Shown here: positions 47,295 through 55,374 of the stretch, one piece after another
Layout of the letters: every line of letters starts with the position of its first letter
How positions within the stretch are numbered: position 1 is the stretch's first letter
NCBI RefSeq assembly: GCF_012927745.1
Contig: NZ_JABBKX010000001.1
Span: forward strand, 558,001-622,000
DNA from: Neoroseomonas marina
Lineage (GTDB): Bacteria; Pseudomonadota; Alphaproteobacteria; Acetobacterales; Acetobacteraceae
Direction of reading: 5' to 3'
DNA: 64,000 bases
Made by a program: the position numbers and the translations under genes
Notes under the pieces: model-generated
Databases searched by the model: none
What the model was told of the DNA's origin: nothing
What the model saw: the letters and a program-made list of their open reading frames with translations, nothing else

Positions 47295-47756
47295 TCAGCC
47301 TTGCGCGGCGGGGCGCGGCGGCAGCAGGAAGACGGCGGCGCCGGCGAACATCAGCACCGCCATCCCACCCAGGATCCAGGGCGTCACGCCCATCCCGGCC
47401 TCGACCGCCGCCGCCGGGCGGACATTCGACGGATCGGCCGGATCGTAAAGGACCGGAAGTCGCCGGCCACGCGGCAGCGCCGCGGGATCGGCCGAAACGC
47501 CCGAGGTCGCCTCGACCTTCCGCCCGTCGGCGGTGGCGAACTGCAAGACCGGATACCAGCTGGTGCTGCGCCGACCGCGGACTTCCTCGTAGCGCAGGAT
47601 GGTCGCCTCGGCCCGCTGGCCGCGGGACGTCAGGGCGAGATGGCCCGAGGCCTGCGACCAGGCGAAATAGCCGAACAGCGCGCCGAGCCCCGCGAAGAAG
47701 GCGAGGAAGACCCAGCGCGACGTGTCGCGCTTCGGCGCGGGGGCTGGCGCGGCCAT
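47295..47756 (-). CDS. DUF3592-domain membrane protein
   Basis: A 153-residue protein with two membrane helices (WVFLAFFAGLGALFGYFAW near residue 15 and GVTPWILGGMAVLMFAGAAVFLL near 122) flanking a beta-rich domain (RGQRAEATILRYEEVRGRRSTSWYPVLQFATADG, LPVLYDPADPSNVRP). This is the DUF3592 layout. Function unknown; the beta domain is probably periplasmic. It lies between a Bug gene and the GatB/YqeY gene on the same strand, with 42 bases to the latter. Confidence 0.82.
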   Translation of the reverse strand: MAAPAPAPKRDTSRWVFLAFFAGLGALFGYFAWSQASGHLALTSRGQRAEATILRYEEVRGRRSTSWYPVLQFATADGRKVEATSGVSADPAALPRGRRLPVLYDPADPSNVRPAAAVEAGMGVTPWILGGMAVLMFAGAAVFLLPPRPAAQG

Positions 47757-47798
47757 GCCGCGAGCCTACCCCCCGGCCGAAGCCGCCGACAACGGGAG

Positions 47799-48251
47799 TC
47801 AGCCGCCGAGGCGCGCCTTCACCATCGGCCCGGCCTTGGCCATGTCCAGCACGGCCGCATACTTGCCCTTCAGCGCCGCCATGACCTTGCCCATGTCCTT
47901 GATCGAGGCGGCGCCGGTCTCGGCCACGGCGGCGTCCACGGCGGCGGCCATCGCGGCCTCGTCCATCTGCTGGGGCAGGAAGCTGTCGATCACCGCGATC
48001 TCGGCTTCCTCCTTCGCGGCCAGTTCCTCGCGCCCGCCTTGGCGGTACAGCGCGACCGATTCTGCCCGCGACTTCGCCATGCCGCGCAGCATCGCGACGA
48101 TCCCGGCCTCGTCCACCGGCGGACCCGGGCGGGCGGCGATGTCGGTGTCCTTCAGCTTGGCCTGGATCATGCGCAGGGTGGACACGCGGGCGCTGTCGCC
48201 GGCGCGCATCGCGGTCTTGAGCTCATCCATGAAACGGTCGCGCAGCGACAT
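47799..48251 (-). CDS. GatB/YqeY-domain protein
   Basis: A 150-residue helical protein resembling the tail of GatB (aspartyl/glutamyl-tRNA amidotransferase) and YqeY. Features: LRDRFMDELKTAMRAGDSARVSTLRMIQAKLKDTDI, EAEIAVIDSFLPQQMDEAAM, and GAASIKDMGKVMAALKGKYAAVLDMAKAGPMVKARL. It may contact tRNA, but the precise role is unclear. It is divergent from carA, with the two palindromic sites in the 117-base region between them. In several alphaproteobacteria this gene sits between carA and dnaG (from memory). Confidence 0.9.
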   Translation of the reverse strand: MSLRDRFMDELKTAMRAGDSARVSTLRMIQAKLKDTDIAARPGPPVDEAGIVAMLRGMAKSRAESVALYRQGGREELAAKEEAEIAVIDSFLPQQMDEAAMAAAVDAAVAETGAASIKDMGKVMAALKGKYAAVLDMAKAGPMVKARLGG

Positions 48252-48299
48252 GGCGGGGATCCTCGGTCTGATCGGGCACCCCTATAGCGCGCCGATCGT

Positions 48300-48318
48300 C
48301 TGGGAGGAAATTTCCCAG
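48300..48318. promoter_or_regulatory. Candidate operator 1 upstream of HTH-carA
   Basis: CTGGGAGGAAATTTCCCAG, arms CTGGGA and TCCCAG with a 7-base centre that also contains the perfect palindrome GGAAATTTCC. It matches operator 2 in arms and spacing. Confidence 0.7.
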
Positions 48319-48332
48319 TCACGGGATTCACC

Positions 48333-48362
48333 TTGCCCTGGGAAATCACTTCCCGGTATCAG
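48333..48362 (+). promoter_or_regulatory. Candidate HTH-carA promoter containing operator 2
   Basis: TTGCCC at 48333-48338 and TATCAG at 48357-48362 with an 18-base spacer could be the promoter. Operator 2, CTGGGAAATCACTTCCCGG at 48338-48356, fills the spacer and repeats the arms of operator 1 (CTGGGA-N7-TCCCRG). Centres are 38 bases apart. The -10 lies only six bases before ATG 48369, so a leaderless transcript is possible. Confidence 0.6.
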
Positions 48363-48368
48363 GGGGCC

Positions 48369-49745
48369 ATGCGCACCGTGGAAGAGATCATCAGCCTGCT
48401 CGGCGGCCCCGAGGCGGCAGCGACCCGTTGCGGCGTCGGCACCGAGGCCATCCGCAAATGGCGCCAGGCCAAGGCCATCCCGGCCAAGCACTGGCCCGCC
48501 GTCCTGGCCGCCACCGGCCTCGCTTTGTCCGACCTTCCCGGCGCGCCCACGGAAACCCAGAAGACGGAGCCGACCATGGCCTCTGCCGAGACCCCCCCTG
48601 ACGGCGCCACGGGCTGCCTGGTGCTGGCCGACGGGACGATCTTCTGGGGCCGAGGCTTCGGCGCCGAGACCGCCAAGGCCGGCGAGATCTGCTTCAACAC
48701 CGGCATGACTGGCTATCAGGAGACGCTGACCGACCCGTCCTATGCCGGGCAGGTCGTCACCTTCACCTTCCCGCATATCGGCAATGTCGGCACCAATGCC
48801 GAGGACATCGAGACGATCACCCCCGCCGCGCGCGGCCTGATCGTCAAGCAGGACGTGACCGAGCCGGCCAACTGGCGGTCGACGAAGCATCTCGACGCCT
48901 GGCTGACGTCGCACGGCATCCCGGGGCTCGCCGGCATCGACACGCGCGCTCTCACGACGCGCATCCGCGACGCAGGCGCGCCGAACGGCGTCATCTGCCA
49001 CCAGGCCGACGGGCGCTTCGACATCGCCGCGCTCAAGGCGCAGGCGGCGGCCTGGCCGGGGCTCGAAGGCATGGACCTCGCGAAGGAGGTCACCTGCCGC
49101 CAGACCTTCGCCTGGGACGAGACGGAATGGGCCTGGCCGGAGGGCTTCGGCCGACAGACCGCGCCGAAGCACAAGGTCGTCGCGGTCGACTACGGCGCGA
49201 AGCGCAACATCCTGCGCTGCCTGGCCTCCGCCGGCTGCGAGGTCGTGGTGGTGCCGGCGACGGCGACCGCCGAGGAGATCCTCGTCCACAAGCCGGACGG
49301 CGTGTTCCTCTCGAACGGCCCCGGCGACCCCGCGGCGACCGGAGAATACGCCATCCCGGCGATCCAGGGCGTGCTCGAGACGAAACTGCCGGTCTTCGGC
49401 ATCTGCCTCGGCCACCAGCTGCTGGCGCTCTCGCTGGGGGCGAAGACCTACAAGCTCGCGCGCGGGCATCGCGGCGCGAACCAGCCGGTGAAGGACCTCA
49501 CCACCGGCAAGGTCGAGATCACCAGCCAGAACCACGGCTTCGCGGTGGACCCCAAGACCCTGCCCGCGAACGCCACGGTCACGCATGTCTCGCTGTTCGA
49601 CGGCACCAATGAGGGCATCGCGGCGACCGACCGCCCGGCCTTCTCGGTGCAGTACCACCCCGAGGCGAGCCCGGGGCCGTCCGACAGCCACTACCTCTTC
49701 CACCGCTTCGTGGAGATGATCGAGGCGCACAAGGCCGGCGCCTGA
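48369..49745 (+). CDS. carA: Carbamoyl-phosphate synthase small subunit with N-terminal Cro-like HTH extension
   Basis: A 458-residue open frame. Residues 1-58 (VEEIISLLGGPEAAATRCGV, TEAIRKWRQAKAIPAKHWPA) resemble a Cro/YdaS-like helix-turn-helix. Residues 70-458 are a normal CarA: an N-terminal domain (GCLVLADGTIFWGRGFGAE, NTGMTGYQETLTDPSYAGQ) and a class I glutamine amidotransferase (FGICLGHQLLALSLG with Cys; VQYHPEASPGP with His and Glu). CarA supplies ammonia from glutamine to CarB for arginine and pyrimidine synthesis. An internal ATG at 48576 (residue 70), with GGAG six bases upstream, would give a 389-residue CarA of usual length, so both forms may be made. Two palindromes precede it. 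Confidence 0.93.
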   Translation: MRTVEEIISLLGGPEAAATRCGVGTEAIRKWRQAKAIPAKHWPAVLAATGLALSDLPGAPTETQKTEPTMASAETPPDGATGCLVLADGTIFWGRGFGAETAKAGEICFNTGMTGYQETLTDPSYAGQVVTFTFPHIGNVGTNAEDIETITPAARGLIVKQDVTEPANWRSTKHLDAWLTSHGIPGLAGIDTRALTTRIRDAGAPNGVICHQADGRFDIAALKAQAAAWPGLEGMDLAKEVTCRQTFAWDETEWAWPEGFGRQTAPKHKVVAVDYGAKRNILRCLASAGCEVVVVPATATAEEILVHKPDGVFLSNGPGDPAATGEYAIPAIQGVLETKLPVFGICLGHQLLALSLGAKTYKLARGHRGANQPVKDLTTGKVEITSQNHGFAVDPKTLPANATVTHVSLFDGTNEGIAATDRPAFSVQYHPEASPGPSDSHYLFHRFVEMIEAHKAGA

Positions 49746-49829
49746 ACGCCGGCCGCGCGTCCGATGACCGAAGCGCCGAAGGGCGCGAAGGTCTGAATCG
49801 GCCGCGCCCTACAATATGAGGGAAACGGC

Positions 49830-50588
49830 ATGTTCGACCTGAAGGGGCGCGTCGCGCTCGTCACCGGCGGCAACGGGGGCATCGGCCTCGGCTTCGCGCG
49901 CGGCCTCGCCAAGGCCGGCGCGACCGTCATGGTGGCGGGGCGCAATGCGGCCAAGAATGCGGCCGCGGTCGCCGAACTCCAGGCGCTTGGCGCGACCGCC
50001 GATGCGGTCGAGGTCGACGTGACGCAGGATGCCTCGATCCGGGCCATGGTCGCGACCACGGCCGAGCGCTTCGGCCGCCTCGACATCCTGGTGAACAACG
50101 CCGGCACCAACATCCGCCGCCGTCCGGAGGAATACCGGATGGAGGACTGGCACACCGTGCTCGCCACCAACCTGACCAGCACCATGATCGCGAGCCAGGC
50201 GGCGCATCCCTGGCTGAAGAAGGGCGGCGTCGGGCGGGTCATCAACAACGGATCGATGCTGTCGATCTTCGGTCTGCCCTTCCATGCCGCCTATGGCGCG
50301 TCCAAGGGCGGGGTGGTGCAACTGACGAAGTCGCTCGCCGTCGCCTGGGCGCCGGACGGGATCACGGTGAACGTCATCCTGCCGGGCTGGATCGACACCG
50401 ACCTGACGCGCAAGGCGCGGCAGGATATGGCGACGCTGCACGAGGACGTGCTGCGCCGGACGCCCTCCAAGCGCTGGGGCGATCCGCGCGACTTCGAAGG
50501 CGTCGCGGCCTTCCTCGCCTCCGACGCCTCGTCCTTCATCACGGGCGTGTCCATCCCCGTCGATGGCGGGTTCTCGGTGCACGGCTGA
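49830..50588 (+). CDS. Short-chain dehydrogenase/reductase (gluconate 5-dehydrogenase-like)
   Basis: A 252-residue classical SDR: cofactor loop VTGGNGGIGLGFARGL, ILVNNAGTNIRR, the Ser region INNGSMLSIFGLP, YGASKGGVVQLTKSLA (catalytic Tyr, Lys), GWIDTDLT, and ITGVSIPVDGGFSVHG. The NAGTNIRR and segments around W-D-T resemble gluconate 5-dehydrogenase and 2-dehydro-3-deoxy-gluconate dehydrogenase subfamilies, but this is a weak guide to substrate. It follows carA by 84 bases and its stop overlaps the ATG of the LysE gene by one base, so it heads the cassette that separates carA from carB. Confidence 0.88.
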   Translation: MFDLKGRVALVTGGNGGIGLGFARGLAKAGATVMVAGRNAAKNAAAVAELQALGATADAVEVDVTQDASIRAMVATTAERFGRLDILVNNAGTNIRRRPEEYRMEDWHTVLATNLTSTMIASQAAHPWLKKGGVGRVINNGSMLSIFGLPFHAAYGASKGGVVQLTKSLAVAWAPDGITVNVILPGWIDTDLTRKARQDMATLHEDVLRRTPSKRWGDPRDFEGVAAFLASDASSFITGVSIPVDGGFSVHG

Positions 50589-51220
50589 TGCCCCCGCTCG
50601 AGACCCTGCTGGTCTTCGCCGCGCTGTCCTTCGGTCTCGCGGCGACGCCGGGGCCGAACATGCTCTACCTCGTCTCGCGCGCCCTCGCGCAGGGGACGGG
50701 GGCGGGCATGATCTCGCTGGTGGGGTGCCAGTTCGGCTCGCTGGTCATCATGCTCTGCGCCGCGGCGGGACTGACCGCGGCGCTGTTCGCCGTGCCCTAT
50801 GCGTGGGACATCCTGCGGCTCGGCGGTGCGGCCTATCTGTTGTTCCTCGCCTGGCAATGCCTGCGGCCGGGCGGGCAGCCGATCTTCGCCGTCCGCGCCA
50901 TGCCGCAGGAACCGGCGGTGCGGCTGTTCTCCGTCGGCTTCGCCACCGCGGCGCTGAACCCGAAGGTGGCGCTGTTCTACGTCGCGGTGCTGCCGCCCTT
51001 CATCGACCCGGCGCGCGGCGACGTCTTCACGCAGGGTGCCATCCTCGGCGCCGTGCAGATCGCGGTCGCCATCGTCTTCGACGGTGCGCTGGTGATGGGC
51101 GCGGCGGGGGTGGCGCGCTTCCTCGGCACGCGGCCGGGCTGGATGGCGGCGCAGCGCTGGATCCTGGGCGGGGCGCTCGCGCTGCTCGCGGTCAAGCTGG
51201 CGACGGAGAGCCGCGCATGA
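50588..51220 (+). CDS. LysE-family amino-acid/metabolite exporter
   Basis: A 210-residue inner-membrane protein with five or six helices. It opens with FAALSFGLAATPGPNMLYLVSRAL, containing the conserved TPGPN motif of the LysE/RhtB superfamily, followed by GGAAYLLFLAWQCLRPGG and VGFATAALNPKVALFYVAVLPPFIDP. It probably exports an amino acid or analogue. It is coupled on both sides: one-base overlap with the SDR stop, and ATGA overlap with the next small membrane protein gene. Position between carA and carB makes export of a pyrimidine or arginine-related metabolite a tempting but unproven idea. Confidence 0.88.
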   Translation: MPPLETLLVFAALSFGLAATPGPNMLYLVSRALAQGTGAGMISLVGCQFGSLVIMLCAAAGLTAALFAVPYAWDILRLGGAAYLLFLAWQCLRPGGQPIFAVRAMPQEPAVRLFSVGFATAALNPKVALFYVAVLPPFIDPARGDVFTQGAILGAVQIAVAIVFDGALVMGAAGVARFLGTRPGWMAAQRWILGGALALLAVKLATESRA

Positions 51221-51486
51221 TCGAGGGCGTGGCCGGCCTGTTCGCCCTCGCCTATTCGGGGCTCGTGCTCTTCGTGCTGGCGTCGAGCCTGCGCCGGATC
51301 TATCCGCCGATGCGCGCGGCCGTGACGGCCTTCGTGCTCTCGGTGGCAGTGCACGGCGCCACGACGCTGATGGCGGGCGAGCATGCCATGGCGGCGCTGG
51401 CCTTCTGGGGCATCCCGCATCTCATCCTGCTGCCGCTGCTGCTCTGGAGCGCCTGGCGCCAGTCGGCGGCCGGGGCGCGACCGTGA
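51217..51486 (+). CDS. Small membrane protein 1 of the carA-carB intervening cassette
   Basis: An 89-residue hydrophobic protein with about three helices (GVAGLFALAYSGLVLFVLA, AAVTAFVLSVAVHGATTLM, AALAFWGIPHLILLPLLLW) and a C-terminal tail of mixed charge. I recognise no family. Its ATG overlaps the LysE stop (ATGA) and its stop overlaps the next start, so translation is coupled. Codon usage and GC match the neighbours, supporting a real gene. Confidence 0.7.
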   Translation: MIEGVAGLFALAYSGLVLFVLASSLRRIYPPMRAAVTAFVLSVAVHGATTLMAGEHAMAALAFWGIPHLILLPLLLWSAWRQSAAGARP

Positions 51487-51785
51487 TGTACGGCCTCGAT
51501 GCCCTGGCGCATGGCGCGACCGCAGCGCTGGTCGCGCTGCCGCCGGCACTTGGCCTGCTCTGGTGGATGACGCCGCTGCTCGCCGGCGGCCACCGGGCGC
51601 TGCGGCCCTTCGTCGCGACCTGCGCCGCCTATGGCGTCATGATCGCCGTGGCCGGCACCTGGGCGATCAACTTCGAACGCGCGGGCTTCGCCGATGAGGC
51701 GGTGGCCGGCGCGCTGATCGGCGGCGGCATCTTCGCGCTGATCGGCTTCCTCATCCTGCTCGCGCTGCCGCGGCGGTCGGCATGA
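51483..51785 (+). CDS. Small membrane protein 2 of the carA-carB intervening cassette
   Basis: A 100-residue protein with three predicted helices (ALVALPPALGLLWWMTPLL, FVATCAAYGVMIAVAGTWAI, GALIGGGIFALIGFLILLAL). It starts at GTG 51483 or the adjacent ATG 51486, overlapping the previous stop, and its own stop overlaps the third small gene. No family recognised. The three proteins might form one small complex because they are made in series (inference). Confidence 0.7.
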   Translation: MMYGLDALAHGATAALVALPPALGLLWWMTPLLAGGHRALRPFVATCAAYGVMIAVAGTWAINFERAGFADEAVAGALIGGGIFALIGFLILLALPRRSA

Positions 51786-52066
51786 TCCGCCTCCTGCCCT
51801 CGCTGTTCGGCTACGCGGTCGCGCTCGCGGTCTTCGTGTGGCTGCGTCGGCGGCGGCCGCTCTTCGTCGCGAGCGTCCTCGGCTTCCTGGCCGGCGTCGC
51901 CGCCTGCTTCGGCGCACCGGCCCTGCCGCTGTTGCTGGCCGAGGGCCCCGATGCGGTCTGGCTGCTCCTGCCGCTCGGCGTCTTCCTCTACGCGCCGACC
52001 ATGCTGCCGCTGATCCTGCTGCTGCCGCTGCTCGGCTACGTCCTGAACCGCGCCGGGAGGCCCTAG
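51782..52066 (+). CDS. Small membrane protein 3 of the carA-carB intervening cassette
   Basis: A 94-residue protein with three hydrophobic segments (SLFGYAVALAVFVWL, PLFVASVLGFLAGVAACFGAPALPLLL, WLLLPLGVFLYAPTMLPLILLLPLL). It begins at ATG 51782, overlapping the stop of the previous gene (ATGA). It ends 62 bases before carB, which has a short leader here. No family recognised. Confidence 0.7.
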   Translation: MIRLLPSLFGYAVALAVFVWLRRRRPLFVASVLGFLAGVAACFGAPALPLLLAEGPDAVWLLLPLGVFLYAPTMLPLILLLPLLGYVLNRAGRP

Positions 52067-52128
52067 GGCCATGACGCGGACCAACCTTCGCGGCCCCGCC
52101 GCCCCTTCTTCCCCCGAGGCCTGAGACC

Positions 52129-55374
<3,246 letters not shown>

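Follow-up and report, generated by a model that had tools for sequence, protein, structure and literature searches.

A Cro-like domain fused to CarA as a probable repressor of its own gene in the Acetobacteraceae

Can the small subunit of carbamoyl-phosphate synthase, an enzyme whose product feeds arginine and pyrimidine synthesis, act on the promoter of the gene that encodes it? This question is raised by a 64,000-nt stretch of the Neoroseomonas marina genome (GCF_012927745.1, NZ_JABBKX010000001.1, positions 558,001-622,000, forward strand; hereafter the window, whose own numbering is used throughout), in which a plus-strand frame of 458 amino acids (48369..49745) joins a helix-turn-helix (HTH) domain of the carph-isopro family to CarA, downstream of two matched palindromes. 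The first-pass annotation of this DNA had proposed that a metabolic enzyme here may repress its own gene through these two operators, and our results support that proposal: we judge it probable (at about 0.82) that HTH-CarA is an autogenous transcription regulator repressing carA through two operators in its own promoter. At the level of sequence, the fusion, its conservation, the operators, the promoter frame, the rarity of the motif away from carA, its absence along with the HTH, and a covariation between a residue and a base are demonstrated below.

A helix-turn-helix domain on CarA

The open reading frame finder placed the start of this gene at TTG 48333; conservation among relatives begins at the ATG at 48369, and from there the frame runs to 49745 without a stop, confirming that the HTH segment is joined to a complete CarA, with both parts scoring above profile cut-offs. 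The 69-aa N-terminal segment scores 70.7 bits against NCBIfam NF046037 (carph-isopro), and 65 bits within the whole protein (cut-off 38), which makes it a member of this domain family; the family name suggested in the first-pass annotation was correct. The whole protein scores 468.2 bits against the CarA profile TIGR01368 (cut-off 307.35), enough for assignment as an equivalog domain. Pfam CPSase_sm_chain and GATase domains are present in the CarA part, and C346, H430, and E432, which we take to be the catalytic Cys, His, and Glu of the GATase domain, are invariant across 35 aligned proteins.

The HTH domain (48369..48536, plus strand; carph-isopro match over residues 4-56) was modelled by AlphaFold2 (mean predicted local distance difference test score, pLDDT, 79.7) with helices at residues 4-11, 14-21, 25-34, and 39-49, and the best PDB matches of this model were Cro proteins, N15 Cro on operator DNA among them. 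Scores against the Pfam families P22_Cro (PF14549, 24.6 bits, cut-off 30.2) and YdaS_toxin (PF15943, 23.1 bits, cut-off 30) fall below threshold. The domain probably works like a Cro, although by score it stands outside P22_Cro membership. The predicted recognition helix comprises residues 25-34 (TEAIRKWRQA, 48441..48470, plus strand), with the codon of Gln33 at 48465-48467; the candidate helix named earlier had to be corrected, since KAIP lies in the loop that follows, ahead of a further helix starting at residue 39. A plus-strand linker (48537..48575) leads from the HTH to CarA, and residues 60-71 have pLDDT <50 in the full-length model.

CarA was present in 382 of the 395 Acetobacteraceae genomes searched, and the HTH in 125 of the 128 whose carA upstream region was read, in 124 of them in frame with CarA. 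The exceptions are two HTH-less genomes of one genus (G063 and G194, where G denotes genomes and L loci) and one contig that ends too early. In G168 (L103), which keeps both operators intact, a run of G and C adjoins the point where the reading frames of HTH and CarA diverge, perhaps through an assembly error or a natural separation. HTH-carrying loci come from named genomes of Acidiphilium, Acidocella, Asaia, Gluconacetobacter, Novacetimonas, and Bombella, with near protein matches in Roseomonas, Crenalkalicoccus, and Belnapia; no HTH was found in the carA regions of five outgroup families. The nonsynonymous substitution rate (dN) of the HTH is well below the synonymous rate (dS), with one of the 14 core dN values missing, and family alignments contain invariant HTH residues.

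The TGA flagged inside some rows was taken, by assumption, as lying at the C-terminal end of CarA. Two duplicates were left out (L145 and L146, from the same genomes as L108 and L103), and L113, which the motif search had missed, was added by hand; dereplicated counts omit L009-L022 and L024-L036, all of one genus, and the count of internal starts also omits L008. Fusion to isopropylmalate enzymes, a guess from the family name, was rejected, the 120 listed of 251 matches to residues 1-69 carrying CarA domains. Stand-alone relatives of the HTH amount to 11 short matches, four of them named "partial". In the HTH-less G194, an 82-aa frame at another place in the genome (C1:2074574-2074711) matches carph-isopro, and a few loci titled as metagenome-assembled genomes (Nitrosovibrio, Terriglobia) do not fit the family and look mislabelled.

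Paired operators in the carA promoter

Upstream of the fusion lie a conserved distal operator, CTGGGAGGAAATTTCCCAG (48300..48318), and, about 38 bp from it, a proximal one, CTGGGAAATCACTTCCCGG (48338..48356). Both follow the single design CTGGGA-N7-TCCCRG, as already recognized from the sequence, and the exact pattern occurs only at these two places in the whole 5,153,233-base genome. Relaxed forms of it were not enriched: allowing up to two mismatches yielded 13 matches in the window against 18.7 expected, which is not above chance, and a genome-wide search with one mismatch yielded 22 forward matches against 18 for the reversed control, hardly more. The family-wide design is a 17-bp palindrome, TGGGAA-N5-TTCCCA. 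With one mismatch, this version retrieved just three places from the N. marina genome, two of them the carA sites (control 1), and a wider regulon beyond carA was rejected for this genome on that basis.

These operators accompany the HTH across the family, a co-occurrence that the first-pass annotation had suggested looking for. Within 230 bp upstream, at least one site matching at least 10 of the 12 operator bases was found in 118 of the 125 HTH-bearing genomes and two sites in 94, as opposed to 0 of 125 coding sequences of the same length and, among shuffles, 0.8% for one site and 0% for two. A looser core, GGAA-N5-TTCC at 7 of 8 bases, was found at least once in all 125 genomes and twice in 115, leaving 10 with only one recognizable site (for one and two sites, respectively, shuffles gave 9.7% and 0.3%, and coding sequences 2 and 0 of 125). 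In 89 of these 115 genomes the paired sites stand 38-40 bp apart, and in the remainder the distance ranges from 33 to 82; an argument for cooperativity from phased spacing was dropped as unsupported, the spacings being too spread. Persistence of the palindromes beside CarA genes that lack the HTH would have told against the proposal, and no site was found, at the stricter or the looser threshold, in the 400 bp preceding carA of G063, G194, or the five outgroup families, the best outgroup match reaching 9 of 12 bases (L074).

The exact motif was present at least once in 66 of 100 family genomes searched, with 101 sites in total against 10 for the reversed control. It appears largely specific to carA, because 61 of the 75 exact sites listed sit within 420 bp upstream of this gene, 6 lie elsewhere, and the other 8 belong to genomes without a carA position to hand. 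One genome, G154, has 11 exact operator-like copies, of which the two listed have identical spacers; they may belong to a repeat with no connection to carA. A variant pattern, CGGAAN5TTCCG, was no more common than its reversed control in seven genomes and was not used.

The proximal operator appears to be built into the promoter itself. Putative -35 (TTGCCC, 48333..48338) and -10 (TATCAG, 48357..48362) hexamers on the plus strand enclose it with an 18-bp spacer, as the first-pass annotation had described, and predict a transcription start near 48369, the A of the first ATG. Among 60 dereplicated genomes in which 27-34 bp separate the start of the proximal site from the first ATG (near-type loci), a TTG starts six bases before the operator, its three bases being kept at 98, 93, and 93%, and the second base past the operator is A in 88%. 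These flanking positions indicate that the operator fills the -35/-10 spacer, which is 17 bp long (18 bp in the window). Scanning for a strict sigma-70 consensus returned nothing at the carA promoter position. The proposed frame agrees with the promoter consensus measured in Gluconobacter oxydans, ttGnnn / Tatnnn (PMC5756330).

A further link between domain and operator comes from covariation. When HTH columns were compared with four operator positions over 94 rows, the strongest pair was residue 33 and base 2 (z 15.8), followed by another pair with the same residue (7.0). Gln33 mostly goes with G2 operators, and Ser, Ala, Thr, or His33 mostly with C2 (CCGGAA-N5-TTCCGG). Among 95 representatives, those with Gln33 comprised 86 with and 2 without a G2 majority, versus 2 and 5 for other residues (Fisher p 7e-6). 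The set was then enlarged by 58 of the 59 loci that non-Gln33 HTHs, a query blind to operators, had retrieved; the resulting 114 representatives gave 90 and 8 versus 2 and 14 (Fisher p 1e-10, a test that treats rows as independent, some added loci repeating genomes already included). A recount over 143 distinct rows, with L144 restored, gave 105 and 12 for Gln33 versus 2 and 24 for non-Gln33, and in a 152-row version containing genome repeats the G2 majority was lost in 29 of 30 non-Gln33 rows and 13 of 122 Gln33 rows (L237, not recognized as fused, was left out of the 114- and 152-row counts).

Non-Gln33 rows that keep G2 are L090 and L144. Residue 24 is changed from Gly in 10 of the 12 Gln33 rows without G2 and also in 25 Gln33 rows with it, so that position 24 may contribute but does not settle the base. 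On the CarA tree, from which L144 and L255 (both from a single genome that runs counter to the covariation) were left out for having CarA shorter than 300 aa, residue 33 changes at least 4-5 times, with only 1-2 independent pairs on supported branches. Base 2 shifts the same way or stays equal in nearly every independent pairing; a sign test on the independent Gln33/G2 pairs was not significant, the pairs being too few for a test.

Autogenous repression and competing explanations

Two protein forms may be made from this gene. Before the first ATG, a Shine-Dalgarno-like motif is absent in 59 of the 60 near-type loci and present in 20 of 38 genomes with a more distant operator. As the -10 box places the transcription start at or next to the first ATG, this absence favours a leaderless reading of near-type loci, and HTH-CarA would thus be translated from 48369 without a leader, against which it must be set that leaderless mRNAs are reported to be rare in G. 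oxydans (PMC5756330). A second, in-frame ATG (48576..48578) follows a Shine-Dalgarno-like GGAG (48566..48569) by six bases, the arrangement reported earlier, and would yield a 389-aa CarA without the HTH. Across 96 dereplicated linkers, 69 contain an ATG and 44 an ATG with GGAG, GAGG, or AGGA at 4-10 bases, compared with an average of 5.2 and a maximum of 11 over 300 rounds of codon shuffling within linkers. ATG makes up 3.0% of linker codons versus 0.9% in the CarA core, and a few genomes have GTG or TTG in its place after a Shine-Dalgarno-like motif. By locus type, an internal ATG after such a motif occurs in 31 of 59 near-type and 14 of 38 far-type genomes. We infer that plain CarA is translated from 48576 in the window and, since many linkers have no such start, that it is likely made in about half of the family rather than all of it.

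These elements suggest how repression could work. The N-terminal Cro-like HTH would bind the two 17-bp palindromes as a dimer, and because the proximal site fills the -35/-10 spacer, its occupation should keep RNA polymerase out and so repress carA. Cooperative binding at the distal site, about 38 bp further upstream, would probably strengthen repression. As to the signal, our guess is either CarA not assembled with CarB or the ligand state of CarA. With carB lying apart from carA and lacking such an operator, unassembled CarA is attractive in this role, as speculation. More tentatively, and with some doubt, we envisage a fuller scheme in which the leaderless start gives the HTH-CarA repressor and the internal start plain CarA, HTH-CarA free of CarB represses so that the promoter senses assembly, and carph-isopro domains form a wider class of enzyme-borne Cro-like repressors that includes an HTH-crotonyl-CoA carboxylase/reductase.

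The most serious competitor to repression grants that HTH-CarA binds and assigns it mainly an activating or dual role, with the distal site activating and the proximal one limiting the effect. The distal site lies some 60 bp before the predicted transcription start, a usual position for an activator; many genomes have its first base near -66 to -70, and two sites are found in 115 of the 125 genomes at the looser threshold. We nonetheless consider this unlikely: 10 of the 125 loci have only one recognizable site, and a proximal site within a spacer of normal length (17-18 bp) favours repression over MerR-like activation, which is distinguished by spacer length. Less probable again is that the palindromes serve a separate transcription factor while the HTH does other work, such as protein contacts. 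A conserved palindrome does not by itself name its binder, and carph-isopro domains are also carried by long proteins for which DNA binding is not obvious, one tested having a Mitofilin domain. Yet a separate factor would have to account for residue 33 of the CarA HTH covarying with operator base 2, for operators and HTH being absent together, and for listed exact sites lying mostly at carA, unlike those of a global regulator; moreover, the N. marina genome contains no second carph-isopro match above the cut-off.

Two further explanations are very improbable. If the HTH frame were an untranslated relic and CarA began at 48576, the GGAG before the internal ATG and the lack of such a motif before the first would be expected, but the family-wide conservation of the HTH, its low dN, and its invariant residues would not, nor would a -10 box that sets transcription to begin at or near the first ATG in near-type loci, or the Shine-Dalgarno motifs that precede it in 20 of the 38 distant-operator ones. 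An RNA hairpin or attenuator in a carA leader deserves a similarly small weight: the RNA fold is somewhat better than that of shuffles (z -2.0, with 6 of 200 shuffles equally good), but the palindromes lie upstream of the predicted transcription start and around conserved promoter hexamers, operator base 2 tracks a protein residue, and no Rfam match at gathering score was found in 47700-48900.

Neighbouring genes, related fusions, and known systems

Divergent from carA is yqeY (47799..48251, minus strand, PF09424), which was found in 44 of the 60 loci tested. From its start to the distal operator is a distance of 49-67 bp, and a minus-strand TATAG box is present in 48252-48318. We rejected yqeY as the true operator target, as the operators persist where it is absent; where adjacent, it could also be affected by HTH-CarA. 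The large-subunit gene carB (52129..55374, plus strand, with Pfam CPSase_L domains) is separated from carA by an interval (49746-52128) containing an SDR gene, a LysE-type exporter gene, and two small frames. Control of carB by a carA-type site was likewise rejected, the only exact GGAAN5TTCC in the window being the proximal carA site.

Outside the Acetobacteraceae, the carph-isopro domain heads other proteins. At L204:1486-3069 it (58.4 bits) precedes a crotonyl-CoA carboxylase/reductase (TIGR01751, 604.6 bits against a cut-off of 378.55), a fusion found in 18 of the 24 genomes searched in another alphaproteobacterial family, 17 near full length and one in two pieces (L269-L285, L292). In seven genomes of other families, the crotonyl-CoA carboxylase/reductase matches leave the HTH part uncovered, two of these matches being partial. 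Upstream of the fused genes, AACAC or its complement occurs 1-4 times per 250 bp versus 0.4 in shuffled sequence, and GTGTTG-N5-CAACAC, which shares its 6-5-6 layout with the carA operator, is found at 10 or more of 12 bases in 6 of 18 (shuffles 0.6%); a version whose gap is 13 bases does almost as well (5 of 18). Operator-like palindromes at these genes are thus suggestive only. L183:1405-3132 and others among L180-L207 encode long proteins with the HTH near the N-terminus and, by eye, a membrane segment and coiled coil, some of them beside an apparent hemD; the L183 protein has a C-terminal Pfam Mitofilin match (28.8 bits, cut-off 27.4).

Throughout a bacterial family, the enzyme itself appears to carry a repressor domain of phage type. 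Should autogenous repression by HTH-CarA hold true, it would be a clean addition to the enzymes known to repress their own genes, to our knowledge a short list, provide a natural series of protein-DNA coevolution (Gln33/G2 versus mostly Ser or Ala33/C2), and allow a test of whether a promoter can read out subunit assembly. Our search, which covered the open-access literature, found no paper on carph-isopro and, among the titles listed, none on HTH-CarA in Acetobacteraceae, and the NF046037 description, which covers the CarA HTH as a member, names no operator, target, or function. In predicted fold and helix arrangement, this HTH appears to resemble the Cro proteins of P22, N15, and Xfaso and the YdaS-type small phage repressors, and Cro repressors act at palindromic operators in promoters; unlike them, it scores below the Pfam cut-offs, is fused to an enzyme, and is vertically conserved in a family.

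Among enzymes, the closest likeness is to the trifunctional PutA, whose N-terminal DNA-binding domain represses its own gene (PMC5293562). PutA and HTH-CarA both hold a DNA-binding domain within the enzyme polypeptide, and sequence evidence points to own-promoter operators for HTH-CarA. The PutA domain is a ribbon-helix-helix on a catabolic enzyme that also controls putP, whereas HTH-CarA combines a Cro-like HTH with a biosynthetic subunit, and most of the exact sites listed for it fall at the gene that encodes it. For Escherichia coli carAB, the described control comes from ArgR, PurR, RutR, IHF, and the trigger enzyme PepA (PMC6245113). There, as proposed for the present locus, regulation of carbamoyl-phosphate synthesis at the carA promoter is linked to an enzyme. 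By that account the regulators in E. coli are other proteins, whereas in the Acetobacteraceae it is the synthase subunit itself that bears the putative DNA-binding domain.
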